From Limnomonas spitsbergensis (lineage: Eukaryota; Chlorophyta; Chlorophyceae; Chlamydomonadales), in NCBI GenBank assembly GCA_037349105.1, contig JAYJMM010000036.1:248001-312000 (forward strand): a DNA stretch of 64,000 nucleotides, read 5' to 3'. The notes below the pieces were generated by a model. That model ran no database searches. It was not told the DNA's origin and saw only the letters and a list, made by a program, of their open reading frames with translations. Each line of letters opens with the position of its first letter. The first letter of the stretch is position 1. Below, piece after piece: positions 43,155 through 64,000 of the stretch. A program made the position numbers and the translations under genes.

Positions 43155-43790
43155 AATGCAACAGGATGCACAACGTTTTGCTTAGCACATCCGTTTTTTG
43201 CACATGGATGCATGCAATTCCCACAACATATGCTTTTGGCATATCGATCGATGCATGTCATTCCCATACATGTGGCAGTTGGGGAGTCTGAGGCACGCTG
43301 TGACATGAGGCGCACTGTCTCCTCTATCACGACGAAGAGATCCCACTGGTCTTTCATGCTGAGGAGGATGGGGCCTATGATTTGGTGGTGGTGGTGGTGG
43401 TGGCGTGTGTCAAACGTTGTGGTAGCCAGGGAGGAGTGTCATATAGGACAGTGATAGGGTTCAGTGCCAGGGTTGGCAGGGGTGCCGGTGTTGGGGGTGC
43501 CAGGGTAACTGCATCAAAAGGTCACAGGTCTGGTGGTGACAACACTCTGGCAAGTTTGGTGAAATCGTTCATTCATTCATTCAAACCGACCGACCGACCT
43601 TCTCGGTGTTGAAACTTGTCGACCAGCGTACCAAACTATGTCCATATCTTGTTCAAGAGTTCCCTCCACGAGCCTAATTCGTTGCATCTCACGGAGCGGT
43701 CCCTTTGCAACAAATCCCTTAGCAAGATTCCTACGTGGTAGATGCTTTCCTCCAGCCCGTCACTGGTCAGATCCATTGGACGCAAGGGGA
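43155..43790. other. Flank of the retroelement with microsatellites
   Basis: No complete gene is visible. A (TGG)n run lies at 43384-43403, a (TTCA)n run at about 43568-43582 and a (CCGA)n run at about 43586-43599. A probable exon of the gene relic on the left occupies roughly 43265-43360 on the minus strand. The last bases before the element are CGCAAGGGGA. Comparing them with the sequence after the element (GGAACC from 63710) gives at most a 3-bp match (GGA), so there is no clear 4-6 bp target-site duplication. Confidence 0.6.
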
Positions 43791-44035
43791 TGTCGCACCA
43801 TAAAGCAGTAATCGTGCCAAAATGGTGTAAGCTGTCCTTACTGCCTTAGAGAGGCTCAAACTACTCACAACTAAGGTTCAACACCTGTACATACGTGCCT
43901 CTTGTACTACACAGCTGAGGTACAAGGGCTGTAAAGGGGTAACTTGGTACAGCGTACCGCATAAGAGCTAAGGCTGGGATAAGGCTGGCCTGCCCGGGCG
44001 CCCCTAGCTGTGGGTACCGCCCCTACTTTACTCGC
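43791..44035 (-). repeat. Repeat B2 (outer 3' terminus of the element)
   Basis: This 245-bp direct repeat is identical to 44677-44921 except for one base (CTGCCTTAGAG here, CTGCCTAAGAG in the other copy). Its plus-strand start TGTCGCACC is the outer 3' end of the element and supplies one half of the palindrome found intact at the B1/A2 junction. It overlaps the neighbouring A2 copy by the three bases CGC at 44033-44035. Confidence 0.93.
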
Positions 44036-44675
44036 GATGGTTGCTTCGGGTCCGTGGTGGACTTCTTCCCCACTGAGTGGCGGACACCTACGGGCGGACT
44101 CAGCGTCTACACGCTGGCCGCGAATGCGCGGCGCGTTAAGCTGTGGTTGGAACTTCTAGGTGACAGGCGTGGAGCTGGTCGCTTGTAGAGCTGCGACTAA
44201 AGGCCTGTCGGGTAGCGAACCCTGCAGGTCGTTATGAGTCACTTACCGCGTGTAGCGGGCGAAACCGTAGCCGTAGACTGCGGACGACGTAGTCCTAGGC
44301 AGGGCTGGGCTTCGGGTTAGGTGTTCTCGTGCTTGCTAGATGGCGGGGTCGCTGTTCTAGGCTTGACTGGCTTAGTGGTACTGGCTTTGATGCACTTCAC
44401 TGGGTAGGTCTCCGAGATCTAGCCGGTGCTGGTTACAAATAGAGGCCTGTCCACTTAAAAGGAACGAAGTGAACGTCAAGCGTGCAAGCCGGGATTCAAA
44501 GGTCCCGGCAAGCCCTATGCACTGAGTACGGGAAACCCTGCCTCAGACCTTCCCGAAAGTGGGAAGCTGGGCTCCTAACCCTAAAAAGGGGCTCCGCAGG
44601 GAAGCTGCGGAGTCTACGGGGACGCGTCAGCGGTCCCTACGGTTTTGGCACGTATACTGCATTATACCGTGACAG
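44033..44675 (-). repeat. Repeat A2 (internal copy)
   Basis: This 643-bp direct repeat equals 63068-63710 with a single difference (GCGAATGCG here against GCGTATGCG), and no indels. On the element's coding strand it begins CTGTCACGG and ends ACCATCGCG. It lies between B1 and B2, so the left side of the element reads B-A-B while the right end has A alone. It contains the 24-base segment at 44448-44471 that is complementary to the sequence just inside A1, but here no partner follows it. Confidence 0.95.
44488..44612 (-). other. Cluster of three hairpins inside repeat A
   Basis: Three perfect stems lie close together. GCCGGGA pairs with TCCCGGC (44488-44509, 8-base loop), CTTCCC pairs with GGGAAG (44549-44566), and CTCCGCAG pairs with CTGCGGAG (44592-44612, 5-base loop). 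The same set is at 63523-63647 in A1. In the sense transcript they would lie 60-190 bases from the start of A. A packaging, priming or promoter-proximal RNA structure is plausible; no known RNA family was recognised. Confidence 0.55.
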
Positions 44676-44680
44676 CTGTC
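44671..44680. other. B1/A2 junction palindrome GACAGCTGTC
   Basis: The meeting point of the two repeat types is a perfect 10-bp palindrome. The element's two outer ends carry its halves: the right end finishes in GACAG (63706-63710) and the left end begins TGTC (43791). Joining the outer ends in a circle would nearly recreate this site. That is the relation expected between internal junction and termini in split-direct-repeat elements. An imperfect inverted repeat (CACGTATA, spacer, TATACCGTG) lies alongside at 44649-44671 and at 63684-63706. Confidence 0.7.
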
Positions 44681-44921
44681 GCACCATAAAGCAGTAATCG
44701 TGCCAAAATGGTGTAAGCTGTCCTTACTGCCTAAGAGAGGCTCAAACTACTCACAACTAAGGTTCAACACCTGTACATACGTGCCTCTTGTACTACACAG
44801 CTGAGGTACAAGGGCTGTAAAGGGGTAACTTGGTACAGCGTACCGCATAAGAGCTAAGGCTGGGATAAGGCTGGCCTGCCCGGGCGCCCCTAGCTGTGGG
44901 TACCGCCCCTACTTTACTCGC
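44677..44921 (-). repeat. Repeat B1 (internal copy)
   Basis: This is the 245-bp direct partner of 43791-44035, differing at one base. On the element strand it starts GCGAGTAAAG directly after a purine tract, the position normally taken by the start of a 3' LTR (U3), and ends GTGCGACA next to A2. There is no copy of B at the right-hand end of the element, which is what makes the repeats split rather than ordinary LTRs. Confidence 0.93.
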
Positions 44922-44933
44922 CCCCCGCTCCTC
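44922..44933 (-). promoter_or_regulatory. Polypurine tract next to B1
   Basis: On the element strand the sequence GAGGAGCGGGGG is all purine but one base and abuts B1. LTR retrotransposons prime plus-strand DNA from such a tract immediately upstream of U3, so its placement suggests that B1 acts as the U3-like part of the terminal repeat. The assignment rests on composition and position only. Confidence 0.6.
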
Positions 44934-45907
44934 ACGAAACGCACACCGGGCGTGCGTGGGGAGCCGGACTAGGGGTGGTACTGAAACTGAGATCGGAAAA
45001 ATATGTACACTCAGAACTGGTGAGTTCCCTAACACGGAACCCTCCTAAACACCTGACTGCAATCCAACCAGTCGGTTTGAACAAAAGAAATCCACTGAAG
45101 AAAATCCACTGCAGGAAGTAACACAAGGAAATTCACCAAAGGATACTCACTGAAACCCGTGGCGAACCCTAGGTCCAACCAAGGTACTGAAAACTCGACT
45201 CAGGCCTCTGGGTTCCCGGTCTCTTTCTGGCCTGATCAGGGCATACAGAATCCGGTACCTTCACCATTGTCATGCTTGTTTGGAAGTCAAGAAAGGGTCA
45301 GAACCCCTGAAAAGCCATCAGAACTACGGGAAGCCAGCGGTCATCAGAATCCATCAGAAATCAGAAGTCAGAAATTATCAGACATCAGAACGCATCAGAC
45401 CATCAGGAATTGTCAGAATTCCTCAGAAACCATCAGAAATCAGAAGTCAGAAATTATCAGACATCAGAACGCATCAGCCCATCAGGAATTGTCAGAATTC
45501 CTCAGAAACCATCAGAAATCAGAAGTCAGAAATTATCAGACATCAGAACGCATCAGACCATCAGGAATTGTCAGAATTCCCCAGAAATCAGAACGCATCG
45601 GAAACCATCAGAAACCAGAATCCCACAGAAACCATCAGAAATCTACAGCGGGTCGCATGAGAATGACCCGAATCTTCAGTGGGGCTGATCCGGGCCTACA
45701 GACTTCTCCTGTTATTCAACCCTGAGCTCTGCATAGGAACACGGAAACCCGCTGCTCTCGCCCCACTGCACCGTTGACACCTGGCCCTAAGCTACAGGAG
45801 ACGTGTGCAGTAGCAGCGGTGCTTCTCCCAACCCGCCTCTACAGGTGGCTGGCCCTGTGGCGGTTCTATGGCTATTATCCCGCCCTGTCCCCCTTGGCTG
45901 TCTGCCC
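44934..45907 (-). other. 3' non-coding region of the element
   Basis: This is the internal sequence between the polyprotein stop and the purine tract. Its only clear structure is a 79-bp tandem repeat in the middle. If the final TAG were bypassed, ten further codons would be read before TAA. Plus-strand open frames here come from the tandem repeat and show no recognisable domain. Confidence 0.7.
45351..45600. repeat. 79-bp tandem repeat of ATCAGAA-type subunits, about 3 copies
   Basis: The marker TCAGAAGTCAGAAATTATCA begins at 45361, 45440 and 45519, a strict 79-bp period with very few differences. Each unit is built from shorter echoes of CATCAGAA and GTCAGAA, and partial copies continue to about 45650. 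It lies in the element's 3' non-coding region. Internal tandem arrays are known from some algal retroelements, for example TOC1 of Chlamydomonas, though with a different unit. Confidence 0.85.
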
Positions 45908-48900
45908 CTAGGCAGCTGTCTCCTCCTCTGCTCTGGCTGCGTCGGTGGCCGCTTTGGCCCTGCGCTGAACTGCCCTGGGGGTGACGTTGGCTTCTCCTCT
46001 GCCCGTTGTGTATGAAATGTCATACAGCCCGTTGGGCATGGGCCTGGCGATGCCCCGCTCCATCTGTTTAGTGGCCGGATTGGTGGCCATGACCTCCACC
46101 TCTGGCTTGTCCATGGCTCCTGTCTCCTGGGCTGCTCTGGCGGCTGCCCTGGTTGCCCGGGGCGCTGTCTCCTCGGGATGGGCTGGTTTGTTCGGTACTG
46201 CTGCTGCGGCCGGGCCCGGCACGCGGGTCCTTGATGCAGGCTCGCACCTGGGGCACATCCAATCGCCCTCGGGGATGGCATAGAGCGCTGGCGCGAGGCA
46301 GTCCATGTGCCAGCCGGTGTTGCATGCGTCGCACAGGAGCATGACGTCCCCCCGGTCGGGTAGGCGGCAAACTTCGCAGGACAGGCTGACGTTGGGCCTG
46401 GAGGTGCTGAAATCCACCCTGCCTTTCAGGTTGGGGAGGTGGCACGGGGAGCAGTTGACTGCGTTCTCTGTCACGGTCAAGCCATCGGCGCCCTCCAGTA
46501 CCAACGCCCCCGTCTCCCCCAGCCTCTGCACCCGCAGGATTTCCGGCCTGGCTTTGGGGTCGAGGCTGCGCCGCTCCGAAGCGTACCGGACGTACACGTA
46601 ATCCCCAACGGCGAACCGCCTGACCTGGGGTACATATCCTCCTCCGCGGATCCTGGCGTAGCGCAACTTGTCCCGGTGCTGTGCGATCTTCAGGTGCTCT
46701 CCCGCGACCGGAAGGGCCTCCTTGATCCTGGCCACCCTGGCGAGGAGCAGGTCTGCGGCCTCCTCCACTGTTGCCACTCGCGCTGTACTCCACAGGTCTG
46801 CCCCGACCTTGGAGGGGAACACTGGCTTCTGCCCGTACAGGACCTCGTAGGGAGCCATGCGCGTAGCCTGCTGAGGTGAGCACCGGAAACCCAGCGCCAC
46901 CCACGGGACCATCCTGTCCCACGAGTCGTCGCTGCTCCCGTCCCCGCAGCACTTGCGCAGGCCCGTCTTGAGGGTCTGGACAGCCCGTTCGGAAAGCCCA
47001 TCCGCCTGGGGATGGTTGGCGGAGGTGGTGCGATGGTCAATGAAGCAATCGAGTAACATGTCTTGGAACTCTCCCTGGAACTCTGTCCCCTGATCGGTGA
47101 CCACCTCTGCGCATCCCCCAAACCGTGCAACCACGTTTTGGAAGAATGCCAAGGCCGTCACGTCAGACGCCTTGCTGGGGATGGGGATAAGCTCCACCCA
47201 CTTGGAGTAGTGCTCTACACACACCATGACGTACCGGTTGCCCCTAGGCGTGGTAGTGAACGGCCCGCACAGGTCCACACCCCAGCGGAAAAATAAACCC
47301 TCAATAGGGAGTGGGTGCAGGTCTGGCTGCGTGTGATTGAACGTGGACGCCCTTGCCCTGTCGCACACCCCGCACTCCTGGACAGCCTTCCTGACCGCTG
47401 CTCTAAGCCCTCTCCACCAGTGCTGCTGCAGGATCATGAAGGCCGTGCGGTGGCTGCCGAAGTGACCGGTGCTAGCGTGAGCTTCCCTGATTACTGCCTG
47501 TCTGTCCTCGGGCCTGGGAACTACACACCGCCGTCCGTCTGGCATCACCCTTATCAGCACGCCCCCCCTCTCTGGTTCCCACTGGAAAGGTGCGGCTCTG
47601 CGCTGCACCCTGGCCTGTTCCCCTGCTTCTGCCCCAGGGGGGTGCATTTTTGATTGCAGGTAGTGCAGGACTGGCACGTCTGTCCATACGTCCACCCGGG
47701 CTGCAGGCCCTGCTGCGCAACCTGGCGGGTCCACGACCTCCCCTGTTTCGTCGTCAGCTACCCGGACGGGATCTGGGTCTGGGTCAGACTGCCCACCTGG
47801 TTCCTGGGCTGCATCCGCCCAGTCTGCTGCCGCTGACTCCCCCAAGCACTGCCGATATGTTGCTGCCGCTAGGTCCTCGCCGGAGCATGCTTTGCCTGCA
47901 CTGGCTAGGGCGCAATGTGTGGACGTCAGGGTCATGCCGATAGCCGGGTCGCGGTCCGGACCTGGTAAGCCAGCCCTGCGGGCCAGCTCCCTAGGGATGA
48001 TCTTGGCCGCCTCGAGGGCTATGGTGAGCCAAGCCTCGAGAGCCCAAGCATCCATGCACCTGCCCAAGGCGGCCCTCCTATCTCCTTCAGGGAAGTCTGG
48101 GCGGGGCAAAGTGGACCCCACTGCGTACCCCATGGCCCTCTCCCTTTCATTTGCATTTGGTTCCTGCAGGCCCCCCATGGGCCTGAAAACCATGCCGCTC
48201 TGCCCGTTCCGGAAAGCGTAGGATGCGGGGGTGGCCATGAGGCAGGGCAGCGCCCTCCTTGGTTGCCCAGACACATTGATGCGGTACCCGCCGTTATCGG
48301 GGCAGGCCACGACCTGCGCCCTACTACCCTCGTCCAGGATGTCATCCACAATACCGTCGTGCGGCCTATGCGATGCCTGGATAACAAACTCAATGTCTGC
48401 AGCTGGTGCTAGGTTGCCCCAGTAGTTACGCGTGCGGTGGGCATAGGAGCCCACTTGCGCTGCATCAAACAGGGAGGGCCTGCCCAGCATCCTGCACACC
48501 TCGCCGAAAGCCTCTACACTAGCCTTCTCGCTCCTCTGGTTTAGCTGCATAGCGACATTTTCAATCAGGTATGCTGGCGGCTTGGCCCTCTGCAGGATCT
48601 GCAAGGAGCCGAGCAGCTTGATAAGGGGGAAGAAAGACTTGCTCCTGGCCCCCTCGAGCCCCTTGCCCTTGCCTGCAGCCGACAAGTCATGGCACTCCCA
48701 TCCTGCTACCATAAACCACTGGCGACCCTGCTGTGCCCCAGCCTCTATGAAGTGCTGGGCAGTAATGGAGTACACGTCCTGGGGTAAAGCCCTGAACGCC
48801 CCCTCGACAGCAGGCGCTGGGAGCAATAGCGGGTATTGCTTGTGCAGCTGCACCAGTCTCCCCCCTGCGATCTCTCGCATGGTGGCACTGGTGTCGGCAT

Positions 48901-49801: not shown

Positions 49802-49804
49802 CTA
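49802..49804 (-). other. Single in-frame TAG between RT and RNase H
   Basis: On the element strand the context is GAT GGC TAG GGG CCA CCA. The reading phase is unchanged on both sides and domain homology resumes at once. A small GGCC-ACCAA-GGCC hairpin can form two bases downstream. This is the only stop in 5,497 codons before the terminal TAG. It may be a programmed readthrough site or a recent CAG-to-TAG mutation; wholesale UAG reassignment is unlikely, because no other in-frame TAG occurs. Confidence 0.9.
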
Positions 49805-55800: not shown

Positions 55801-58800
55801 CGCCTGCCTGCCTGGCTGCCCATACCTCGAATGACTCGTCCTTGGCTGCCTCGAACAGGTCGCGGAGGTGTTCGCGCTGCTGGCTGCCGCTGGGGGGTTC
55901 CTCCTGCCTGAAGCGACTGTGTCCCGGGTTGTCCTGGGCTGGTGCTCGGCCCTCGCCCCCGCCGCTGGGTCTCCAAGGCTGGGCCTGCGGCTGGTTGCAT
56001 TCGAAGGCTAAGTGGCCGCTACCTCCGCACTTGTAACATGCTTCCTTCTGGGTAGGGGGTGCTCTGCCAGTCCTGCCCCGGGCAGAGTCCTCCAGCGGCG
56101 CCCACCTGACCATCCTGTTCTCCCCTGGCTCCTCGGCTGTCGAACGCCTTCCGGGGCTGTGGGCCTGGCTTTGCCGAATGGGGCTTCTGGCTCTGCCCTG
56201 CGGCCAACGCTCGCCGCGGGGGCTGCGTGGCGCCTCCCCTTCCCAGCGCCTGCCGCTCCCGCCTTCGGGTTCTCTGCTGCCGCGGTTGGGTGGGTTCCCT
56301 GGGGTAACGGGACTGCGGCTGCGGGTTCTTCTGTTCCTGCCTCCGCCGTCTGGGCTGAGGGCCTCCCTGCCCCTGGGCCGCTGGTTGCCACCGCTGGTGC
56401 CCTGCGGGGGTGGAGGTGGCCTTCTGTTTGGTGACCTCGCCCGAGGCTGCTGTGCGCCGTTCCTTCTCTCTGTCAGTTCCCCCGGCCAGCGCCCGTCCTG
56501 GTGCTGCTCGGTGCTTGGAGCCCGCCGCTCCCTGCTGTGGCTACTGCGCCGTGGGCTCCTTTCCCTTGGCTGACGCTCTGCGGCGCTGGCGCTCCTGGGC
56601 GCCCTGCCGCTGTCGGGGTTGCGGCTAGGGCCGCTGCCTGACTCCCTTGCCCGTGGAGAGGGGGTGCGGCTGGCCCTTGCCTTGGGCTGAATTCCCTGCT
56701 TGGGCTGGGCTCTGTTGTCCCGTAGAGACTGCAACAGGTCCTCCGGGTAGTCCCTTAGGCCAGGGTCGTCGAGCTCACTCATGACCTCTTGCACCTCAGT
56801 GGGCTTACCCCTGGGCGTTCCTTCTTGGCCGCCCTGTCCTCCTCCCCTGGCTTCCTTGCCTGGTGCCGCGTCCTGCTGCTGGGGCTCGACAGTTGTGTCT
56901 GCTGCAGGCTGCTGCTGCCTGGCCTCCCTGGCCCCGCTGCAGTCCTCCTGCTGGGCTCCACAGGGGCGCTGGGGGCCCGGCTCGGGGGCTGCCTCTGTGC
57001 CCTTGTACTCCTCCTTGTACCTCCTTTTGAGATCATTCACCTCTATGATCCACTTGGCGCATTCTCCCTTCCACCGTGCCATCTCCCTATCTGAAGCGCC
57101 GTCCGCCATTGCCCGGGCCTGCTCCATTTTGAAGGAATAGATGTCTGCCTCCCTGCTGGCGATTCTCTGCCTGGCTGCGACCCGGATGGCCCTGTTCAGG
57201 ACCTGGACCTGGGTCTCCAGGCTGCTGACGACGTCTGCCCTGGTAGCGTTTCTGTCTGCCTGCAGCTCAGACTCTGAATCAGTGGTTCCTTCATCGCTGT
57301 GGCTGGTGTCCTGAGTGTGCGCAACCGGAGAGCCTGGCTGGCAGCTGCCTCTGCTGTACGTGTCTACTTCCCGGCCCGGCTCGTTCTCCAGGAGCTCCCC
57401 TAGCCTCCGCTCGCATTCCTGGTCCGTATGCGATCTGCGCATGTCGCAATACGCGCAGGGGCCGTCCCTGTTGCGCAGGGCATTCCTGACCTCCTGTCGG
57501 ACTGTGTGCTCCTGCTCCATGGCCAGCCTCGCCTTGTCCCGCGCTGCTACGGGAAGGTCCATGGCTTTGCCGTCCTTGTCCCGCGCTGCTACTGAGGGGC
57601 CCCCGGCTTCGCCGCCCTTGTCTCCGCTGATGGGCCGGCTCCCGGTACCCCTGGTACCGTCCGGATCCGCCGGCGCTGCGTGAGCCTGGGTCCGGGCTAC
57701 TGGGTCTGCCTCTGGCGCTGCAGCAGGGTTGGTTCCCTTTTGCCCTGCTTGCTGGCGCGCTGCCTCAGTACCTGCGCCACGGGCCCCTTTGGCCTTGGCC
57801 GGCTTGGCCCCTTCTGGTGCTGCCGCAGGTGCCTCTGCCGCGGGCAGACGGGTGACACGGTTTGCGGCGACTGTAGTTTGCGTCGCAGGGCCGCCTCCTG
57901 TACCTGTCACCATGGCACATTGTGGGGTTAAGTCTGGGTTCATCTCGCCCCAATCTGCCGGCCACTCTTCAGGCACCCAGGCGGGGTCGTCCAAGCCTGC
58001 CCAGGTTGCCGCGGCCGCCTGGTGGGATCCTGCTGGTGATATCAGTTCTAGCGGCAGGGTGAGCCCGTCGGCTCCTCCTTGAGGGAACAGGGTGAGGCGC
58101 CCTGCGGCTTCTAGGACTCCCCCATACTTGAGGAATTCGGGGTTCCCTACCAGGTGCTCATACGCGTCAGGAGGCGTCTTGACCACCCTGACTGCTGCCT
58201 TCTCCACGATCGCATTCGGGCTTCCATACCCGTACACGACGTAGATGAACAGAATCCCGTACAGGTCTGCTCCTGCATTATCGGTTGTCCTGATCTTTTC
58301 ATCCGTCCTCACCAGCTTGGCCCCCATGGCTACCAGCTGTTCTGCTATGTTGACGGTGATGACATGGCATGAACATGCCGTGTCCATTAGTGCCTTCTGG
58401 GCCACCAGCACCTTCCCTTTCACCATGAGGCCTACGCACTGGCTGTAATCTCGCCTGTCGTTTGTGAAGTATTGTAGCCTCGGGCTGATGGTGATCTTAC
58501 GACCCTGACCTATCCAGCCCGGCTCACCACGGACCGGCGTGACTCCCATGGGCATGGTGGTGTGCGCCAGCGCTGTAAGTCGTTCGTTGATGTAGCCCAC
58601 CTGCGCACGGACATCGCACAGGCCGTCAGCTAGTCGCCTAAGAGCAAGCCTTTTCTCTCCCTTCCTGGAAGGGTGTTCAACAGCCAGTGGCTCCTCCTCC
58701 TCCTCACTGCTAGAGGAGGGTCTAAAGGACCGCGGCCTGGCGTTGTGGGCTGCCTGCTTGTACTCTCCAGGCTTGGGTGCCAGCCCAACCTGCGTCAGGA

Positions 58801-61800
58801 GGGCCACGGACTCGCTGAGCATTTCGGCCACCGTTTGGTGCCACCCATCCGGCTCAGCGAGCTCGGAGGGGCCAGAAAGGTGAGACAGATGAGCGGACTG
58901 CTGGCCATGCCCCGCCTGCCCCTGCGGCTGCCTCTGGGCTGGCCTGCCTCCTTGGTTCCTGTCGTAGGTCCTGTTCACGGGTGGCCCCTGCGGTCTTGGA
59001 GGCGGTGGATACTGCTGTTGAGGCGGCCGTGCCTGCCCCGTGGTGATGTCAGTGGCCAGGGGGGCAGGGCGGCGTTCATCTCTAGCCCTGGGAGTCCTGC
59101 AGTCCCTTGCCAGGTGGTCCAGGCTGCCGCATTGGAAGCAGGCTTTGGGGGCGCCCCCAGCGCTGTGGGTGCTGGTTGTCAAGGCTGTGGCTTGGTCGGC
59201 CCACCTGACGCCCTTGGCCCTGCTTTCCTGCCTGGCAGGCTGGCTGCTGTTCTGGTATGGCGCAACTCCTGGTCCATCCCCTCTGGGCCTGGCTTCCCAC
59301 TGGCTGGGCCGATCTCGCCTGCCGCGCCCCGCCTGTTGCTCCCCCTGGCTCCTCTGCTGATGGTCTCCTGGTCCTTGCCTGGAGTCCATGGCAGCCAGGT
59401 CCCCCAATTCCAGGGCGAACCTCTCCCACAGCAGTACCTGCTGCGTCAGGACCTCTACATGGGCCTCGTCTGTCATGTGCAGGTATCCTGGCACGGTCAT
59501 GATGAACGCTGTCAGCTTCACCCTGACTGCCCCTGGCAGCCCTTCGTAGAACATGTGGGCTACCGAATGCCTCCTGCCGAAGTGGTCCACTGCGTCTCTG
59601 GAGATTTGCAACAGCTCTGCTGTAGACATGACTCGGAAGGCGAATGCCTCCACTGTCTCCTCTGGCTTGACGCCTGGGTCCAAGGTGGTCTTGACCCCGA
59701 GTTTCAGGCCGGTGATTGCTGCCCTCTCATCTGAAGTCGGCTTGCCCACCTCCCTTTGGACCACCCTGATCCACAGGGTTAGCAAGGATACCTCACAGGT
59801 CGGCTCCTCCACTGGGGCTCTCCATGCTTCCCGGATCCGCTCGACCTCCCTGGAAGCTTTGTCTCCTTGCGGTGCTGATCGTATGGCGACCACCAGTGGG
59901 CCCACGCAGGCCGGCTTGGCTGTCCACATGTCCACCAAGGAGCGGACCAACAGGGCCATGGCTGAAGGAGACTGGCAAGACCCTGCAATCTCGCCAGCCA
60001 CCACAGCCAGGGCTGGCGGCTCGTCCGATAAAGCCAGGCGGTTGTGCGAGCCCCAAGAGCTGCAGGCCTGGCAGTATTGCCTGGCTGCGACTGCCCCCGG
60101 GTGGGACATGTCCAGCACTGGCACGTTGCCCTGAATGTTGGGGATCTTGGTGAACCGCGTTCCCCCAGCCAACTGCAGGATCATCTGTTGCTGCAGCCGT
60201 ATGTTTGTCTCCGCCTGCTCTTGGGCTATCCTTTCCCTTCTGCGCCTTGCAGATTCCCTGCTGGAGCCTGGGCCGCGCCCCTCTGTATCCTCCGAGCCTG
60301 ACATGCTGGGGTCCGAGCCAGATCCGCCGCCGCCGTTCCTGGTTGGGCTCTGCCTGCGCCGATCCCGCTGGTCTCTGCGGTCTGCGCTCAGGTGGGATTG
60401 CCTTCTACCGGATGGCCTACTGCCCTCCGAAGGCTGCCTTGCCGGGTCCTGGCTCCTACCCCCTTCTGACTCTGCCTGCCTGCTGGGCTGGTAGCTGCTA
60501 TGCCTGCTGGGCTGCGTTCCACCTGTGTACTCCCTTGCCTCGGAAGCTGACAGGCAGTCGTCCCTGCTGTCCTGTCTTTGCTGGTAGTCTCCCCCCGTGG
60601 GGCCTGCCGGGTTGATTTCCTGAACGACCCTCCTTCCTTGGCTGGGGCCTTGGCTCCTCTCCGGCCTGCCTCGTGCCTGCGCTGCTTGTCCTCGCAGGAA
60701 CTCAGCAATGTGGTCCACCTGGCTTTCTTGGCCGCTGTGCTGATCTACGAAGCGCAACAAGTCGTGAGATTCTTGCCTGCTGGCCCTCCTTGGCGCTGGG
60801 TCCTGCTGGAAGCTGGTTGCCCTGGGCTGTTCGCTGGCCGCTGGGCTGCTGGGTCTGGGTCTGCGCTCTACGTCTAGCCGCTGGTTTCGGAGGCTGGGCT
60901 CACTGCTGGCTTCCAGGCTCTCCCATCTGGCCTGTCGTGCAACAGGAACGGTCCCTTCCGTCTGCTGCTGCCATTGCCCCTCCCTGCGGTCATCTTGCTG
61001 TAGCCTGGATGCCTCGAACCCTTCCCACTCCTCGAGCTCCTCTTGCTCTGATTCGGGCTCCTCCAGATCCCCTGCTGTGCCGTTGCACCACTTGTCGGCA
61101 AAGGCCTTGACAGCCAGAGCCGCCTCTGGCCCTGCTGGTCCTCTGGACACTCTGCGCAGGGCCGCCAGCAGCGTTGCTCGGTCCTGTCCCGTGTGCGGGA
61201 TGCCCATAAGGGCCTTTGTTGCCCATTCCGCCAAGTGGTGGCTTTGGAACTCCTTGATAGCCCGGGCCTGATCGCTGAGGTGGACGAAACACTTGGAGCA
61301 CACCTGCTGCCATAGCCGCCCTGCCCATTGCAGGATGTCTGCCCACCCAATGGGCTGGAGTCCTGGTGGCTCTGCTGCACCCGGCTGGCTTATGCTCCCT
61401 GCGCGTTCTCCCACTGCCGGGCGCCGCTCTCCTGGGATGGGCGTCCACTCTGGATTGCTGAAATATCCGTAAAGGCTATGGGCCTGGCCGCTGTCCTCCT
61501 TTTCCCTGCTGGTGCCCTCTGCCACGGTCTCCTGGCTTGGCCTGTTTGCACTGGCTGGGAACCTGGACTGGGGTGTGCCGTATGTTGACGCCTCTGTTGC
61601 TTCCTCTGCCGGGATACGGGGCGGCCTTGCCTGTTTCACCCTGTGCAGATCTGGCCTGGGCGGGATTCCCGTTGGCGCCTGCATTCTTCCGTGCTGATCT
61701 GGCGGCACTACCTTGGCGTGTGGATCAGCCTGCGGCTGCCATATTCTGGTAGCCTGCATTGTCGTGGCTTGTGTGTCGCTGTATTTCTGCAGCTCCCGTG

Positions 61801-62401
61801 GCCTCCCTGTTGTTTCCGCTGACTCCCCTTGGGACTGCTGTTCGCTGGATCTCGTCCGCTCCATCCTGACCATTGTTGACTGGACCATCCCCTTGACCAC
61901 TGTGGGTTCAAGCTGGGGCTCCTGGTCTGGTCTGGGCTCAGCCTTGCCTCCTTCCCTTTCTGCCTCCGCAGGCAGGTCATCCGGAGGTCGTGCTGGCCCG
62001 CCACCCTCTCCTACACCACCGGTCTGAGACCTCACAGTGGGTGGCTCTGAGGTCGGATCCAGGGACTCATCGTCGGGAACCGGCCATTGCTCGTCCTCCT
62101 GGCTTGGGCCAGGGGGGATGCGCGCTATGCCGCCTCGTCCGATACCCCTGCGCGTCACTTGAACCTGCACCATACCCTCATCCAAGGCTAGGGTGCTATC
62201 GGCCCCTTGGACCTTGTTTTCCATTGTGCCTGCATATTCACCATCTGACAACCCAATGGCAATTAGCCTAGCTTCCTCTGCTACGGCTGCATTGATGGGT
62301 GTCATGGGGTCATTGCCTGGTTCCATTCCTCTCACTCGTGCACTGCGTCTTGCAGCCTCTGGATGCAGGTGACGATCATGATCTACCACTGCGTCCTGCA
62401 T
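49802..62401 (-). CDS. Gag-Pol N-terminal part: gag, protease, zinc motifs, RT (4,199 aa)
   Basis: The frame opens with ATG at 62401; an in-frame TGA stands 17 codons upstream. Order: low-complexity Q/R/P/S-rich N-terminus, small helical region (about 354-447), capsid-like gag (about 752-1004), CCHC knuckle (1087-1102), protease-like segment (about 1318-1437), CX2CX5HX4C motif (about 1648), coiled coil (about 1723-1798), long R/P/S-rich stretch, second CCHC knuckle (about 2121-2136), an unrecognised folded region (about 2512-2990), PHD-like finger with further cysteine clusters and knuckles (about 3258-3417), hydrophobic segment (about 3716-3740), and reverse transcriptase (about 3875-4110). 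At 4,199 residues before the stop it is several times longer than a usual gypsy Gag-Pol of 1,000-1,800. Repeated knuckles suggest that gag-like modules were duplicated or captured. Mature products would depend on proteolytic cleavage. Confidence 0.92.
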   Translation of the reverse strand: MQDAVVDHDRHLHPEAARRSARVRGMEPGNDPMTPINAAVAEEARLIAIGLSDGEYAGTMENKVQGADSTLALDEGMVQVQVTRRGIGRGGIARIPPGPSQEDEQWPVPDDESLDPTSEPPTVRSQTGGVGEGGGPARPPDDLPAEAEREGGKAEPRPDQEPQLEPTVVKGMVQSTMVRMERTRSSEQQSQGESAETTGRPRELQKYSDTQATTMQATRIWQPQADPHAKVVPPDQHGRMQAPTGIPPRPDLHRVKQARPPRIPAEEATEASTYGTPQSRFPASANRPSQETVAEGTSREKEDSGQAHSLYGYFSNPEWTPIPGERRPAVGERAGSISQPGAAEPPGLQPIGWADILQWAGRLWQQVCSKCFVHLSDQARAIKEFQSHHLAEWATKALMGIPHTGQDRATLLAALRRVSRGPAGPEAALAVKAFADKWCNGTAGDLEEPESEQEELEEWEGFEASRLQQDDRREGQWQQQTEGTVPVARQARWESLEASSEPSLRNQRLDVERRPRPSSPAASEQPRATSFQQDPAPRRASRQESHDLLRFVDQHSGQESQVDHIAEFLRGQAAQARGRPERSQGPSQGRRVVQEINPAGPTGGDYQQRQDSRDDCLSASEAREYTGGTQPSRHSSYQPSRQAESEGGRSQDPARQPSEGSRPSGRRQSHLSADRRDQRDRRRQSPTRNGGGGSGSDPSMSGSEDTEGRGPGSSRESARRRRERIAQEQAETNIRLQQQMILQLAGGTRFTKIPNIQGNVPVLDMSHPGAVAARQYCQACSSWGSHNRLALSDEPPALAVVAGEIAGSCQSPSAMALLVRSLVDMWTAKPACVGPLVVAIRSAPQGDKASREVERIREAWRAPVEEPTCEVSLLTLWIRVVQREVGKPTSDERAAITGLKLGVKTTLDPGVKPEETVEAFAFRVMSTAELLQISRDAVDHFGRRHSVAHMFYEGLPGAVRVKLTAFIMTVPGYLHMTDEAHVEVLTQQVLLWERFALELGDLAAMDSRQGPGDHQQRSQGEQQAGRGRRDRPSQWEARPRGDGPGVAPYQNSSQPARQESRAKGVRWADQATALTTSTHSAGGAPKACFQCGSLDHLARDCRTPRARDERRPAPLATDITTGQARPPQQQYPPPPRPQGPPVNRTYDRNQGGRPAQRQPQGQAGHGQQSAHLSHLSGPSELAEPDGWHQTVAEMLSESVALLTQVGLAPKPGEYKQAAHNARPRSFRPSSSSEEEEEPLAVEHPSRKGEKRLALRRLADGLCDVRAQVGYINERLTALAHTTMPMGVTPVRGEPGWIGQGRKITISPRLQYFTNDRRDYSQCVGLMVKGKVLVAQKALMDTACSCHVITVNIAEQLVAMGAKLVRTDEKIRTTDNAGADLYGILFIYVVYGYGSPNAIVEKAAVRVVKTPPDAYEHLVGNPEFLKYGGVLEAAGRLTLFPQGGADGLTLPLELISPAGSHQAAAATWAGLDDPAWVPEEWPADWGEMNPDLTPQCAMVTGTGGGPATQTTVAANRVTRLPAAEAPAAAPEGAKPAKAKGARGAGTEAARQQAGQKGTNPAAAPEADPVARTQAHAAPADPDGTRGTGSRPISGDKGGEAGGPSVAARDKDGKAMDLPVAARDKARLAMEQEHTVRQEVRNALRNRDGPCAYCDMRRSHTDQECERRLGELLENEPGREVDTYSRGSCQPGSPVAHTQDTSHSDEGTTDSESELQADRNATRADVVSSLETQVQVLNRAIRVAARQRIASREADIYSFKMEQARAMADGASDREMARWKGECAKWIIEVNDLKRRYKEEYKGTEAAPEPGPQRPCGAQQEDCSGAREARQQQPAADTTVEPQQQDAAPGKEARGGGQGGQEGTPRGKPTEVQEVMSELDDPGLRDYPEDLLQSLRDNRAQPKQGIQPKARASRTPSPRARESGSGPSRNPDSGRAPRSASAAERQPRERSPRRSSHSRERRAPSTEQHQDGRWPGELTERRNGAQQPRARSPNRRPPPPPQGTSGGNQRPRGREALSPDGGGRNRRTRSRSPVTPGNPPNRGSREPEGGSGRRWEGEAPRSPRGERWPQGRARSPIRQSQAHSPGRRSTAEEPGENRMVRWAPLEDSARGRTGRAPPTQKEACYKCGGSGHLAFECNQPQAQPWRPSGGGEGRAPAQDNPGHSRFRQEEPPSGSQQREHLRDLFEAAKDESFEVWAARQAGAPPANFLPGPPEGPRWAGKGAHGCFATTPRGHDPGFNEPYTWFEQEWDDAYLERQEEQARQPWGLHEGREPEPGLDPEGMATEARNGEVPQQIHHWRVAVEAIATNGLLTMPADAPKSTAHALELLDYLRRMGAPAPQEGWLALLANFLVTLRAREDQGNSESEGSAHRQDPEISGEASGQEGESDDLSQDIYDPPDVLCPGTPEAGAPAAGPRPAASAEGGGSSFTLQAHGATGGVTSRPPAAGSGHRSCRTEHGPTERTWTQEEVPSEREQWWEPEEPQNPDHWGNSDLSAVEDAEDLDAPGPGPGEPWPRHCFVQWYPAGTDMPEVAATAAMITLPGAGADGLCRLQNHWCVPRGEVICVDRQAAMQAVARLVFPMDAVTAGLLAAAIKGHIRPSTAMEEFMSSTWPTPLYANCVSELLGSVVKEGITAAEEQFRTSQEIPDAARAYGMWQHAHDGFMRTPWAENCVMTLARHPCLANQAVCVPTQAAARQAYALAALRDHSGYDGAGILHPGTPRQCPEIVERGQDIAREVMGQAVPWGYEPGDARVAIPVRLAVAHYHEDLEGQWTHPAPRAWIHMHATRDDQPVWFFFKTATQVQSDRFPSVERAEEHAVSTFRGTDPAVWTIMMMALNRTLLPGQMSAAVHNIEIVDELWAPQERADCPTHVSAHCTPAAGATAWQGEQALTLSAFAQGRLQSCLQQWMRVEQAAYYNGVPSILLPHWSAPAATVRLWWQRHPRGAVTLHPLFSGSNHDEALRDLTGLLDRGIADRQETPRGRWGAFRETTSPGSTHSPDETTLNMQPGSREHSFFTSLRGGNYEVDWPESDEENSLAGLPQLLQDSDSEEEPAATAGHTAPPEGRVAVPSEHTAPSAGHMQGDSQQSRATEGRPEPAATLEFQADTSPSWSRGLSDTNSEAGNPEPEDPGAPRLAAEGEPDHRSVDLSKEQWDDELRQFVAQRDRQRLEGGAPWPVPQGGPEPRGGRIEASLRYRLSMVPDPSPDPRLQGRNQAAEELRQAFRGRLRALSEAQPPELEGDPGTDGAGTSGQSSGSGQERREPCAGCDQARAGERLIWCSACGMAWHDLCMRTPRTGAARVCQFCMTPEARLPSCLGCGESISPTEQPSRRCCRCHAKACGTCMDKPGIGGTRRGVWACCGCSDAVPPAWGHHSVHSEPCERCGKKGHDYHACPAPRLREGRCAICFHQGHLAMACPERNQSLGFIRQWQMEEDSRLGVRWWCSAQEALPGEREVVFKAAHSRATISDVRQAIEERRQDEANQARRGEQRPVPFREWYRETADQPLQPSMHAVQYAQILSIGAELIKANDEGRWPEAGEPLDNWPVEWGVPERTSLWNYQAIQRTMLQPHQLGRQPRSAARSSSSARAQTVSPEGAYRSAAGCTGPTAAEGHQTPTSRGENRPADSSKVRAAAARRARNARTRARQRRRKAAAKDASNSTGCPSPPTRFSQVELEFSWREGPEDRGPPAAPSPAAPAGPQPSPRQQPACKGLLPCTAFRGLLACLCHLALVWLLLSCLPGAQASGRGVRGGGFTAGQGAFVCSREAAAKLEPGWLRPPVDMPVPRPPRPQSTWDQGTSSAGPQAVTGEPLAGGVIDMFQPGGVVHAPSEYVKTEEGWLLGKHPDFTGEQQEQLEQSLRDRQGAFAYSMLELPGYCGAQGEFTLALEDEHSSCFQKARDMPPPKAAIFKEKCQPMIEAGIIVRVPQGGPIKFAANSVVAAKKCAETGEWSDHRIAHDMRRMNLRTAKQEFAIPRMETIFQNLGTAKVFSKVDLRSGFMQIPIKVEDQPKTAFWMGPELWMYTKLNFGLRNGPPFFQRMMEEEIARAGLSSFCVAFIDDLLVYSDTPADHIRHVELMLDMLHAVGLRAHPDKSLFGCATVEYLGHNVSAQGLTPHAAKIAAVMALPEPASVKNIQEVMGFLNFYRCYIPDFSRKAACINALLVKGVPFVWGPEQAQAFQLIKTEMCEGGRVLRRPDYSGTGPDG
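50072..50780 (-). other. Reverse transcriptase domain
   Basis: The Ty3/gypsy RT landmarks are present: NSVVAAKKCAETGEWSDHRI, LRTAKQEFAIPRMETIF, KVFSKVDLRSGFMQI, PKTAFWMG, KLNFGLRNGPPFFQRMM, the catalytic box FCVAFIDDLLVYSD (both Asp near residue 4052), and SLFGCATVEYLGHNVSAQGL, followed by the connection GFLNFYRCYIPDFS. FIDD replaces the common YLDD/YVDD, a tolerated variant. No catalytic residue is missing, so the enzyme looks functional. Confidence 0.95.
51189..51252 (-). other. Hydrophobic segment between zinc cluster and RT
   Basis: About 21 residues, LLACLCHLALVWLLLSCLPG, followed by AQASG, look like a transmembrane helix or an internal signal sequence with a cleavage-like AQA-S. Such a segment is unexpected inside a gypsy Pol. 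It could anchor a processing product to membrane or simply be a buried helix. Confidence 0.5.
52150..52630 (-). other. PHD-like finger with tandem cysteine clusters and CCHC knuckles
   Basis: Residues of about 3258-3417 begin with a C4HC3-type finger (CAGC, WCSACGMAWHDLC, CQFC). They continue with CLGC, CCRCHAKACGTC and CCGC clusters, and finish with two CCHC knuckles, CERCGKKGHDYHAC and CAICFHQGHLAMAC. Combining a histone-reader-like finger with nucleic-acid-binding knuckles in one block is unusual. It is a second PHD-like module, separate from the one after integrase. Confidence 0.75.
53430..54868 (-). other. Unrecognised folded region of about 480 residues
   Basis: Residues of about 2512-2990 are less disordered than their surroundings and contain regular hydrophobic and aromatic segments: HCFVQWYPAGTDMPEVAA, CVDRQAAMQAVARLVF, YANCVSELLGSVVKEG, AWIHMHATRDDQPVWFFFKT and WTIMMMALNRTLLPGQM. 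I recognise no family. It sits between two zinc-binding modules, so it may be a captured cellular domain. The HATR tetrapeptide is not accompanied by the other residues of a tyrosine recombinase. Confidence 0.6.
55995..56042 (-). other. Second CCHC zinc knuckle
   Basis: CYKCGGSGHLAFEC (CX2CX4HX4C) is a canonical retroviral-type knuckle at residues of about 2121-2136. It follows a long R/S/P-rich stretch and precedes a helical segment. Because the first knuckle lies more than 1,000 residues earlier, beyond the protease, this looks like a second gag-like module. Confidence 0.85.
57005..57462 (-). other. CX2CX5HX4C motif followed by a coiled coil
   Basis: CAYCDMRRSHTDQEC (residues of about 1648-1662) is knuckle-like with five residues before the His instead of four. 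It is followed after an acidic linker by a heptad-rich helix, SLETQVQVLNRAIRVAARQR through IIEVNDLKRRYKEEYKG (about 1723-1798), likely to oligomerise. This suits a structural, Gag-like role downstream of the protease. Confidence 0.65.
58090..58450 (-). other. Aspartic-protease-like segment
   Basis: MVKGKVLVAQKALMDTACSC has the strand-turn pattern that leads to the catalytic Asp (D1340), but DTACS replaces the usual DTGAS/DSGAT. It is followed by IAEQLVAMGAKL, the expected helix, and by ADLYGILFIYVVYG. Placement after the gag knuckle is normal for a retroelement protease. The missing Gly next to the Asp makes activity uncertain. Confidence 0.68.
59095..60150 (-). other. Capsid-like gag region and first CCHC knuckle
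   Basis: Residues of about 752-1004 are helical and resemble retrotransposon gag: SLLTLWIRVVQREVGKP, ETVEAFAFRVMSTAELLQIS, HMFYEGLPGAVRVKLTAFIM and TQQVLLWERFALELGDL. The knuckle CFQCGSLDHLARDC (1087-1102) follows after a basic, glutamine-rich linker. Together they would form the particle shell and bind the RNA. Confidence 0.8.
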
Positions 62402-63044
62402 TGTACTATTGCTGGGTGCTGAGCAGCCGTGCCGGCTCGCTGTGTGGGCTCACAGCAGCAGGTCACTGGCTCAAAGCCTGCTTCCGTTCTCCTCTACCTT
62501 CTGCAGGCTGGTTAGGCGTTGCTAGACAGGTCAAGCACGGGTAAATTTTTTTAACCTGGTTCTGGCGGGTATTTTCACCTTCTGGACTGCTGTCTCGTCC
62601 GCTATCTTGCTGGTCTCGTCCGCTATTCCTCCGCTGATTCGTCGCGCAGCTTCCTCCTCGATCTCCGCAGGGCCTGCTCAGGCTGCAATCTGCAGCTTCG
62701 GGTATTCCTGCACACAGTCTTGGGTTGCCTGCTTTTAAACTCGGATCCCAGATCCTTGCTCACTTCTGTCAACACGCAGGCTGTGCACTCTACCACGGAT
62801 GCAGGCCACGTGCACAGGTAATATCAGCTGGGTTTATAACTCCACAGCCTGATCTTCAAGCTACGTCTGCTTCTGGGTTGCCACGCCCAGCGCAAGCAGG
62901 AATTGACTTGGGTTCTATGGAGAATCCTCTGCTAAGTGATTTTGAGCTGTCCAAGGTAGATCACTGCCTTCAAAAAGAAATTCAAGTTCACAGCACATGC
63001 ACCTTTAGCAGGATTCGCTGGATCAAGCTGATCAGGCTTAGACC
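62402..63044 (-). other. 5' leader of the element
   Basis: About 640 bases lie between the segment that follows A1 and the first ATG of the polyprotein. No other gene, tandem repeat or clear open frame is evident on the element strand. It is the expected place for packaging and translation signals, none of which I can identify by sequence. Confidence 0.65.
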
Positions 63045-63067
63045 CACTTCGTCCTTTTAAGTGGACA
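63045..63067 (-). promoter_or_regulatory. Primer-binding-site-like segment complementary to part of A1
   Basis: The 23 bases immediately inside A1 begin TGTCCACTTAAAAGGACG on the element strand. They are the reverse complement, with one extra base, of 63483-63506 inside A1. The RNA could therefore form a 23-bp stem closing a loop of about 415 bases. They occupy the usual primer-binding position but do not resemble the common initiator-tRNA site. Self-priming, known for Tf1-type elements, is the inferred role. Confidence 0.6.
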
Positions 63068-63710
63068 CGCGATGGTTGCTTCGGGTCCGTGGTGGACTTC
63101 TTCCCCACTGAGTGGCGGACACCTACGGGCGGACTCAGCGTCTACACGCTGGCCGCGTATGCGCGGCGCGTTAAGCTGTGGTTGGAACTTCTAGGTGACA
63201 GGCGTGGAGCTGGTCGCTTGTAGAGCTGCGACTAAAGGCCTGTCGGGTAGCGAACCCTGCAGGTCGTTATGAGTCACTTACCGCGTGTAGCGGGCGAAAC
63301 CGTAGCCGTAGACTGCGGACGACGTAGTCCTAGGCAGGGCTGGGCTTCGGGTTAGGTGTTCTCGTGCTTGCTAGATGGCGGGGTCGCTGTTCTAGGCTTG
63401 ACTGGCTTAGTGGTACTGGCTTTGATGCACTTCACTGGGTAGGTCTCCGAGATCTAGCCGGTGCTGGTTACAAATAGAGGCCTGTCCACTTAAAAGGAAC
63501 GAAGTGAACGTCAAGCGTGCAAGCCGGGATTCAAAGGTCCCGGCAAGCCCTATGCACTGAGTACGGGAAACCCTGCCTCAGACCTTCCCGAAAGTGGGAA
63601 GCTGGGCTCCTAACCCTAAAAAGGGGCTCCGCAGGGAAGCTGCGGAGTCTACGGGGACGCGTCAGCGGTCCCTACGGTTTTGGCACGTATACTGCATTAT
63701 ACCGTGACAG
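63068..63710 (-). repeat. Repeat A1 (outer 5' terminus of the element)
   Basis: This is the 643-bp direct partner of 44033-44675, with one base difference. It forms the outer 5' end of the element, beginning CTGTCACGGTATAATGC on the coding strand. It holds the hairpin cluster (63523-63647) and the segment complementary to the primer-site-like sequence (63483-63506). B does not follow it, in contrast to A2. Confidence 0.95.
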
Positions 63711-64000
63711 GAACCTTCGGAACATGGACACATGTAGTCAGGACGACCGCGAAGATGGAGATCACGTACATGGTGTGGTGTGGGGTATAGGTGAAATGGG
63801 TACATGTGTGGAGGTTGTGGAGTTTGTGGAAGATGTGGAGGTGGTGGAGGTGGTGGACGTGGTGGAGGTTGCGAAGTGCACGTGCAGACACATGCACCTC
63901 GGATCAATGGGAATGCGTTCACATGTATGAAAATGACTGCTATCCATGCGACTCAAGCGACTAATTTGAGTGCGATTCCTACTGTTCATGCTGTTCATGC
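63711..64000. other. Right flank with GTGGAG microsatellite
   Basis: Host sequence after the element. A GTGGAG/GTGGTG-rich tract runs from about 63806 to 63871. No gene is convincing; short overlapping frames on both strands reflect the repeat. The first bases (GAACCTTCGG) do not obviously continue the left flank. Confidence 0.6.

Follow-up and report, generated by a model that had tools for sequence, protein, structure and literature searches.

The stretch of DNA considered here, called the window, comprises 64,000 nucleotides of the green alga Limnomonas spitsbergensis (GenBank assembly GCA_037349105.1, contig JAYJMM010000036.1, forward-strand positions 248,001 to 312,000; G000:C36:248001-312000), from a genome of 260 Mb in 124 contigs. 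Its subject is a retrotransposon, coded on the minus strand, in which two direct repeats are split and interleaved and a DDE integrase is encoded. The order proposed in the initial annotation, A - internal - B - A - B with repeats of 643 and 245 bp and one mismatch in each, is borne out by direct comparison: 44033-44675 matches 63068-63710 with a single mismatch (44123, A/T), and 43791-44035 matches 44677-44921 with a single mismatch (43847, T/A). Three bases (CGC) at the joint of the first B with the first A are common to both repeats. The element itself is limited by TGTC (43791, plus strand) and GACA (63709) and occupies 43791-63709; base 63710 belongs to the flank. In the coding direction it reads a (642 bp) - internal region - b (242 bp) - GC - a - b, where the dinucleotide GC, at 44675-44676, is a spacer between inner a and inner b. 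The ends and repeats of the window copy are laid out as follows.

43787-43790, no strand: left target-site copy, GGGA, against GGAA on the right (one mismatch in the window copy)
43791-44032, minus: terminal b, coding 3' end of the inserted element; begins TGTCGCACC on the plus strand, one mismatch to inner b
44032-44033, minus: a/b joint, predicted fusion of the two ends of a linear complementary DNA (cDNA)
44033-44674, minus: 3' copy of a, 642 bp, one mismatch to the 5' copy
44671-44680, no strand: palindrome GACAGCTGTC with spacer GC, the uncut b-GC-a junction and predicted integrase cutting site in a circle
44677-44918, minus: inner b, predicted start of U3 as set by reverse transcription
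44919-44933, minus: purine-rich tract GAGGAGCGGGGGGCG, predicted polypurine tract, just 5' of b
63045-63067, minus: predicted primer-binding site, with which the internal region opens; complements 63483-63506, one base being bulged in this copy
63068-63709, minus: 5' copy of a, 642 bp; element end GACA at 63706-63709
63468-63472, minus: predicted poly(A) signal TGTAA (a 238-242), repeated in the 3' a at 44433-44437
63483-63506, minus: predicted self-primer and 5' region of the RNA, a stretch of a (positions 204-227) that complements the primer-binding site
63710-63713, no strand: right target-site copy, GGAA, in the flank of the window copy

The internal region holds two long open reading frames (ORFs) with the following recognizable parts.

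45908-49780, minus: ORF of 1290 amino acids with RNase H, a C5-methyltransferase-like segment, integrase and a PHD finger
about 46244-46378, minus: PHD finger
about 47009-47512, minus: integrase, H2C2 (E 8e-13) and rve (E 3e-11)
49802-62401, minus: ORF of 4199 amino acids with CCHC zinc knuckles and reverse transcriptase
about 50096-50548, minus: reverse transcriptase
about 55994-56041, minus: CCHC zinc knuckles

The order reverse transcriptase - RNase H - DDE integrase is that of a Ty3/gypsy Pol. In the window copy the reading frame is broken between reverse transcriptase and RNase H (49802/49780); several other loci have open frames of about 5,470-5,514 amino acids, against 4215 in the window copy, and the reverse transcriptase was found at no fewer than 134 loci (scored among 1160 candidates). 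The integrase had been described as carrying intact HHCC and DDE motifs, and so it does: both the H2C2 and the rve profiles match, the window protein and nine relatives all have the D, D-35-E residues without variation, and the nearest integrases of known structure by sequence are those of Ty3 and prototype foamy virus (PFV). The absence of a recognizable tyrosine recombinase likewise held in a profile scan of eight ORF pieces, in which no family of that kind matched at E<=1; smaller ORFs lay outside the scan. The C5-methyltransferase segment matches PF00145 just under Pfam's cut-off. A second, weak PHD-like match lies in the long ORF upstream of the reverse transcriptase (52499-52621, minus; E 0.005, below Pfam's cut-off). 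Among 120 listed of 223 relatives of the integrase-PHD part, those with names are green algae, except for two bacterial records of metagenome-assembled genomes (MAGs) that are likely mis-binned; the named algal ones, 42-51% identical, come from Haematococcus, Volvox, Pleodorina, Tetrabaena and a ‘Chrzof’ record taken for Chromochloris.

The split anatomy is a property of the family, not of one copy. Copy counts are to be read as lower bounds, the best 40 candidates having been scored per DNA search. The b-a unit, used as a query, matched over its full length 43 times, at 40 loci, with a further b at every locus (39 complete, one of 61 bp) and flanks unrelated to each other, which excludes chance and disposes of the earlier worry that B-A-B might be a misassembly. 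At the 5' end, internal-region probes with 0.3-0.9 kb read led in every one of 40 sampled cases from a straight into the flank, without b. The complete, identical long terminal repeats (LTRs) at both ends that mark Ty3/gypsy elements, named beforehand as the outcome that would overturn the split-repeat reading, were looked for and were absent from all 40. At the 3' end, a repeat-independent internal probe found b-GC-a-b in 28 of 40 cases, one of them lacking its final two bases; seven finish at the first b (L074, L075, L078, L080-L083), and five are altered, L077 being b-a-b with a 197-bp loss at the joint and L076, L079, L086 and L087 rearranged or truncated. In L076 (C119:3780800-3782600) the primer site follows directly on the 3' a and other sequence comes next, as in a deletion or a dimer form; L087 (C21:287300-289100) reads b-GC-a, a 24-nt primer site, then a-GC-b in inverted orientation, which resembles a self-primed hairpin or a product of self-integration. 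Tandem a-b units occur twice over in the C20 copy and three times in the C71 copy. Two further subfamilies, whose a is 83% and 68% identical, show the same anatomy. Compared within one element, the two a copies show no difference in 15 of 26 clean cases and never more than 4 differing sites among 642; between copies the median difference is 3% over inner b, a and nearby internal sequence. Two 5' ends 20 kb apart (C27:1659669 and 1679697; L042 and L041) have a common right flank and are likely a segmental duplication.

How these copies entered the genome can be read from their borders. Immediately outside TGTC and GACA, a target duplication of 4 bp is perfect in 34 of 38 copies, with 34 different sequences; chance would supply such a duplication in about 1 of 256 copies. 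Among copies paired by both ends the figure is 30 of 33: 25 of 28 that carry a single a-b unit (counting L077 and the copy from the sister subfamily), both of those with tandem units, and all three paired a-internal-b copies. The pairing left out the mates of L003, L006, L014, L015, L020, L065, L067, L069-L073, L084 and L085; several 5' ends and four of the seven b-only copies likewise stayed unpaired. The third subfamily adds four perfect duplications in five copies (TGCT, TAAG, CTAA and TTTA; the C41 copy has TTGC/TTTC). In one case the empty site is at hand, as an earlier suggestion for measuring the duplication had asked: the C124 copy sits in the leader of another copy, and its joined flanks match the empty site at 115 of 120 positions if a single TGTG is kept, against 76 of 124 with two. 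The 34 perfect duplications and the C124 empty site together argue that the family inserts by an integrase-type (DDE) route. Ty3/gypsy target duplications are typically 4-6 bp, and the 4 bp found here is a short, fixed duplication of that kind.

Two other accounts of the split repeats founder largely on this evidence. One would make the arrangement a single rearrangement, a recombination product or a misassembly of an ordinary gypsy element, later spread by segmental duplication; tandem arrays of the repeat unit do exist, and the flank common to L041 and L042 does resemble duplication, but 34 different duplications at independent sites, three subfamilies with a merely 68-83% identical, and a pairs without any difference in 15 of 26 clean cases while copies differ by a median of 3% leave it hardly credible at all. 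With the anatomy found family-wide, both the one-off rearrangement and the misassembly were rejected. The other account would have a PAT- or Ngaro-like tyrosine-recombinase element insert its circle site-specifically, with the DDE integrase as a passenger. The repeat order A-int-B-A-B is indeed that of PAT and Ngaro (PMC4157794), so that the split direct repeats characteristic of those elements are present; their tyrosine recombinase gene was not found in the eight pieces scanned, and insertion by such a recombinase, as the same source describes it, makes no target duplication, whereas 34 of 38 copies here have one. This account was rejected on the target duplications and the domain scans, and is very improbable.

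Directly 3' of the 5' a stands TGTCCACTTAAAAGGA(A)CGAAG, of which 23-24 nt are complementary to a 204-227 of the same RNA, and folding of the leader pairs the two in all three copies folded. The sister subfamily has one extra A on both complementary sides, a covariation; in the third subfamily the primer site TGTCCTTTAGAAAGGGACGAAGT is perfectly complementary to its own a. For that third subfamily, the absence of b beside a at the 5' end, the duplication TGCT and the primer site TGTCCTTTAGAAAGGGACGAAGT were foretold from the 3' end alone and then seen, with 28 nt of flank read at the 5' end and the place of the 5' a obtained alongside the forecast. The Tf1/sushi arrangement, in which a 5' segment of the RNA is complementary to the primer site by the 5' LTR, is thus found here, covarying in three subfamilies, and the complementary segment, a 204-227, would mark the RNA 5' end. 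At the other side of the internal region the purine tract GAGGAGCGGGGGGCG lies directly 5' of b, its last 12 bases identical in all 53 loci that show the border (54 examined). The motif TGTAA occurs at a 238, and at a 240 in the sister subfamily; TGTAA is the main poly(A) signal of Chlamydomonas, on average 14 nt before the site (PMC3439250).

Because the purine tract adjoins b, the primer site adjoins a and TGTAA is placed within a, we infer that the LTR made by reverse transcription is b-GC-a, with U3 beginning at b and U5 finishing at a; the RNA would then contain neither the terminal b nor the a/b joint. The priming boundaries are the end of a and the start of b; the inserted ends are the start of a and the end of b. 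Ordinary Ty3/gypsy elements are inserted by the very ends that the primer site and the purine tract set; here that is not so.

The a/b joint of the inserted 3' repeat (CATCGCG/AGTAAAG) corresponds to the predicted right end of the cDNA fused to its left end; elsewhere in the element, a adjoins the primer site (TGTCCAC) and b adjoins the purine tract. Among 43 loci of the window subfamily with a readable joint, 37 are standard, two carry an extra T, two TG, one TGT, and one has lost 197 bp of a; the sister-subfamily copy also has an added T. What is added corresponds to the opening bases of the primer site, which is what imprecise removal of the primer would leave. Three copies (L011, L018 and L019) are 1-2 substitutions apart in about 2 kb, yet their joints carry no extra base, TG and TGT respectively, which argues that the joint is formed anew at insertion and not inherited.

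The opposite ends of a and b, those that meet the flank, have a different character. The inserted ends TGTCGCACCATAAAGCAGTAA and TGTCACGGTATAATGCAGTAT form an imperfect inverted repeat, matching at 15 of 21 positions (15 of 21 in the sister subfamily, 14 of 21 in the third); among 620, 614 and 618 other offsets, respectively, not one scored as high. For the ends set by reverse transcription the matches number 7, 6 and 6 of 21, rising to no more than 10, 9 and 8 when 49 small shifts are allowed. Where b-GC-a is uncut, the inserted ends face each other as GACA-GC-TGTC, and this is so in the two other subfamilies as well. PFV integrase cuts the palindrome of a two-LTR form (PMC1180852), and cleavage of palindromic two-LTR junctions is described for both the PFV and the human immunodeficiency virus type 1 (HIV-1) integrases (PMC1180852, PMC1905944). 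By analogy with the PFV cut, cleavage 3' of both CA dinucleotides here would leave recessed ends with a 2-nt overhang and would lose the GC.

The exact 17-mer across the palindromic junction occurs 975 times in the genome, many times in tandem arrays, against 4 for a reversed control. Long tandem b-GC-a arrays, satellite-like and derived from the element's LTR, lie at C15:1173899-1215563, C18:10350-21009 and C18:96616-110870; the C15 array has at least 41 junctions, mostly 884-890 bp apart.

Distant relatives carry the palindrome too. Five contigs (L103-L107), with integrases 46-48% identical, come from MAG records filed as bacterial or archaeal (Halorubrum, Mollicutes, Synechococcales and Halanaerobiaceae); they encode algal-type gypsy polyproteins and are likely mis-binned. 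GACAGCTGTC occurs once each in L103, L104 and L105, at 1033, 1150 and 419 nt past the integrase match; a sixth locus found, L108, with 22% identity across 151 residues, does not enter this count. The palindromic cutting site is likely older than the Limnomonas family, because it is present in three of these five relatives. The ends of the L105 contig overlap by 127 bp, as in a collapsed repeat. Among viral contigs there were 7 pattern matches for relatives, none of which was confirmed.

One way to account for these ends without any joining supposes that reverse transcription itself, perhaps by leaving one template at the end of a and resuming at the start of b, yields a linear cDNA ending in TGTC/GACA, a-internal-b-GC-a-b, which integrase would insert conventionally, so that no circle is needed. 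Reverse transcriptases are known to switch templates, and TG...CA ends with short target duplications, as observed here, are ordinary for gypsy elements. The purine tract and the primer site, however, mark the remaining two boundaries, and neither was seen at TGTC or GACA; joints that retain 0-3 nt of primer site, together with the one 197-bp loss, resemble ligation of finished ends; and the inner b-GC-a retains the GC spacer that cutting would remove. Taken together these points make the linear route unlikely, though considerably less so than a tyrosine recombinase.

The reading preferred here, which we hold to be probable, is that of a Ty3/gypsy-type element whose integrase acts on cDNA with joined ends, cutting GACA-GC-TGTC inside one LTR and producing a 4-bp duplication; the joined-end substrate is most likely a two-LTR circle. 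That is, the RNA would run from near a 204 of the 5' a to near a 255 of the 3' a; its 5' segment would pair with the primer-binding site by a and prime in the manner of Tf1, as the complementarity suggests; plus strands would begin at the purine tract by b, giving a linear cDNA [b-GC-a]-internal-[b-GC-a]; the cDNA ends would be ligated, end of a to start of b, with 1-3 nt of primer site sometimes kept, as the variation of the joint indicates; integrase would then cleave 3' of CA on both strands of one b-GC-a with loss of the GC, to judge from the anatomy, leaving recessed CA ends as in retroviral 3' processing; and the product would be the observed a-internal-b-GC-a-b between 4-bp duplications. 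Opening inside one LTR of a joined cDNA would turn ordinary LTRs into split direct repeats. A one-LTR circle opened at the same site would yield a-internal-b, the form seen at seven of 40 3' ends. The initial annotation had offered a choice between a new pairing of termini with an integrase and a two-LTR circle opened within one repeat, and the data favour both at once; the anatomy fits a two-LTR circle, or a concatemer, opened within one LTR, as a regular life cycle and not by accident.

Several observations weigh against this scheme. Four of the 38 copies have no perfect duplication: the window copy (GGGA/GGAA), L016/L094 (GAGC/GAAA), the C41 copy (TTGC/TTTC) and L066/L052 (terminal bases changed). 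The purine tract includes C's and ends in CG, and a GCG common to both sides makes the exact start of b ambiguous by up to 3 nt. In a joint with TG, the T may be followed by a G contributed by the purine tract, and the sole third-subfamily joint read carries an extra A before AGTAAAG that is not primer-site sequence, the border of inner b being unread in that copy. In the relatives, the 420 and 511 nt of L106 and L107 that lie beyond the integrase match contain no palindrome, no a/b repetition is visible in the contigs L103-L107, and a 14-nt self-complementarity test, which does detect that of the window copy, is negative in all five. The tandem arrays of the 885-890-bp unit show that the number of repeat units also changes by other routes. 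The a-internal-b copies were considered as proof of one-LTR circles and dropped in that role: recombination between two b copies explains them equally well, and they are compatible with such circles. Finally, the substrate could also be a linear concatemer; the circle, the RNA and the protein are deduced here from genomic DNA.

Other repeats were met along the way. Within the window, a 79-bp tandem repeat lies at 45351-45580, between the end of the polyprotein ORF and inner b, and a dispersed 100-bp direct repeat recurs in at least nine copies over 7865-33052. At C3:44552-155404 a satellite-like repeat recurs with a spacing of roughly 1-3 kb.

The family is classed with Ty3/gypsy, as a variant: it shares the Pol domain order and the short target duplication, and departs from the type in lacking complete LTRs at both ends and in having its inserted ends away from the priming boundaries. 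Its wider kin appear to be the green-algal gypsy polyproteins of Haematococcus, Volvox, Pleodorina, Tetrabaena and Chromochloris, which, in a comparison of proteins only, also have integrase followed by PHD, often with reverse transcriptase and RNase H and in some cases PF00145. With somewhat less assurance than for the scheme itself, we lean towards an algal gypsy clade in which integration of joined ends (of a circle) by a DDE integrase is the normal life cycle; in such a clade reverse transcription would employ one pair of LTR ends and integration another, and the inserted copies would be circularly permuted cDNAs that record the ligation joint. A retroelement with a DDE integrase inserting from joined ends as its normal route was unreported in the titles and abstract openings surveyed, and a literature search for the split-LTR combination found no report, subscription journals lying mostly outside both.

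A precedent for the anatomy exists in another alga. KnitGypsy-Dnmt3 of Klebsormidium nitens has gypsy domains and a repeat structure of DIRS type (de Mendoza et al. 2018, PMC5890265, Fig. 4 legend); the gypsy domain set, the C5 methyltransferase in Pol and the repeat structure are as here, and the difference lies in its methyltransferase, which is of Dnmt3 type where the Limnomonas element has a PF00145 match just under the cut-off. The pairing of split termini with a DDE integrase, put forward in the initial annotation as possibly new, is real, in three subfamilies, and not fully new. The main text of that paper lacks the terms ‘target site’ and ‘circular’, and the portions of it consulted hold nothing on duplications, priming, joint variation or mechanism.

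For priming, the nearest comparison is Tf1/sushi, in which the RNA 5' end is complementary to the primer-binding site, as is inferred here; the first 11 bases of Tf1 RNA pair in this way (PMC7175516), against 23-24 nt and permuted termini in the present family. The termini deserve a separate word. Inserted DNA of ordinary design is what Tf1 has, with ordinary LTRs.

The circular DNA of retroviruses is commonly regarded as a dead end. A 1984 proposal that two-LTR circles are integration precursors (the Panganiban-Temin model) was put in doubt by work on Moloney murine leukaemia virus, for which linear DNA was shown to be active (PMC11054761); a possible one-LTR circle scaffold is mentioned elsewhere (PMC5408684). 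The likeness to the retroviral two-LTR circle is that the bases between the two CA ends of the palindrome are lost on insertion (PMC11054761, PMC1180852); the difference is that the retroviral palindrome is the LTR-LTR joint, whereas here it lies inside the LTR and the LTR-LTR joint is kept in the inserted copy. Such an anatomy is hard to derive from linear cDNA, and each end-joining is left on record; with at least 134 reverse transcriptase loci and 975 intact palindromic junctions, the old circle question becomes testable from sequence and with purified integrase.

The last comparison is with PAT, Toc, Ngaro and Viper, which also have split direct repeats; theirs go with a tyrosine recombinase and no target duplication, and those of the present family with a DDE integrase and 4 bp (PMC4157794). 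For DIRS-1, circular intermediates are thought to be the inserted form (PMC5633606). Split direct repeats can no longer be taken, as a rule of thumb, to indicate a tyrosine recombinase: automatic annotation could misfile elements of this kind as DIRS, and LTR finders could miss them. If the joined-end scheme is true, split direct repeats would be a signature of circle integration generally, whatever the recombinase, and elements like this one would form a plausible bridge from gypsy to the tyrosine-recombinase retrotransposons.

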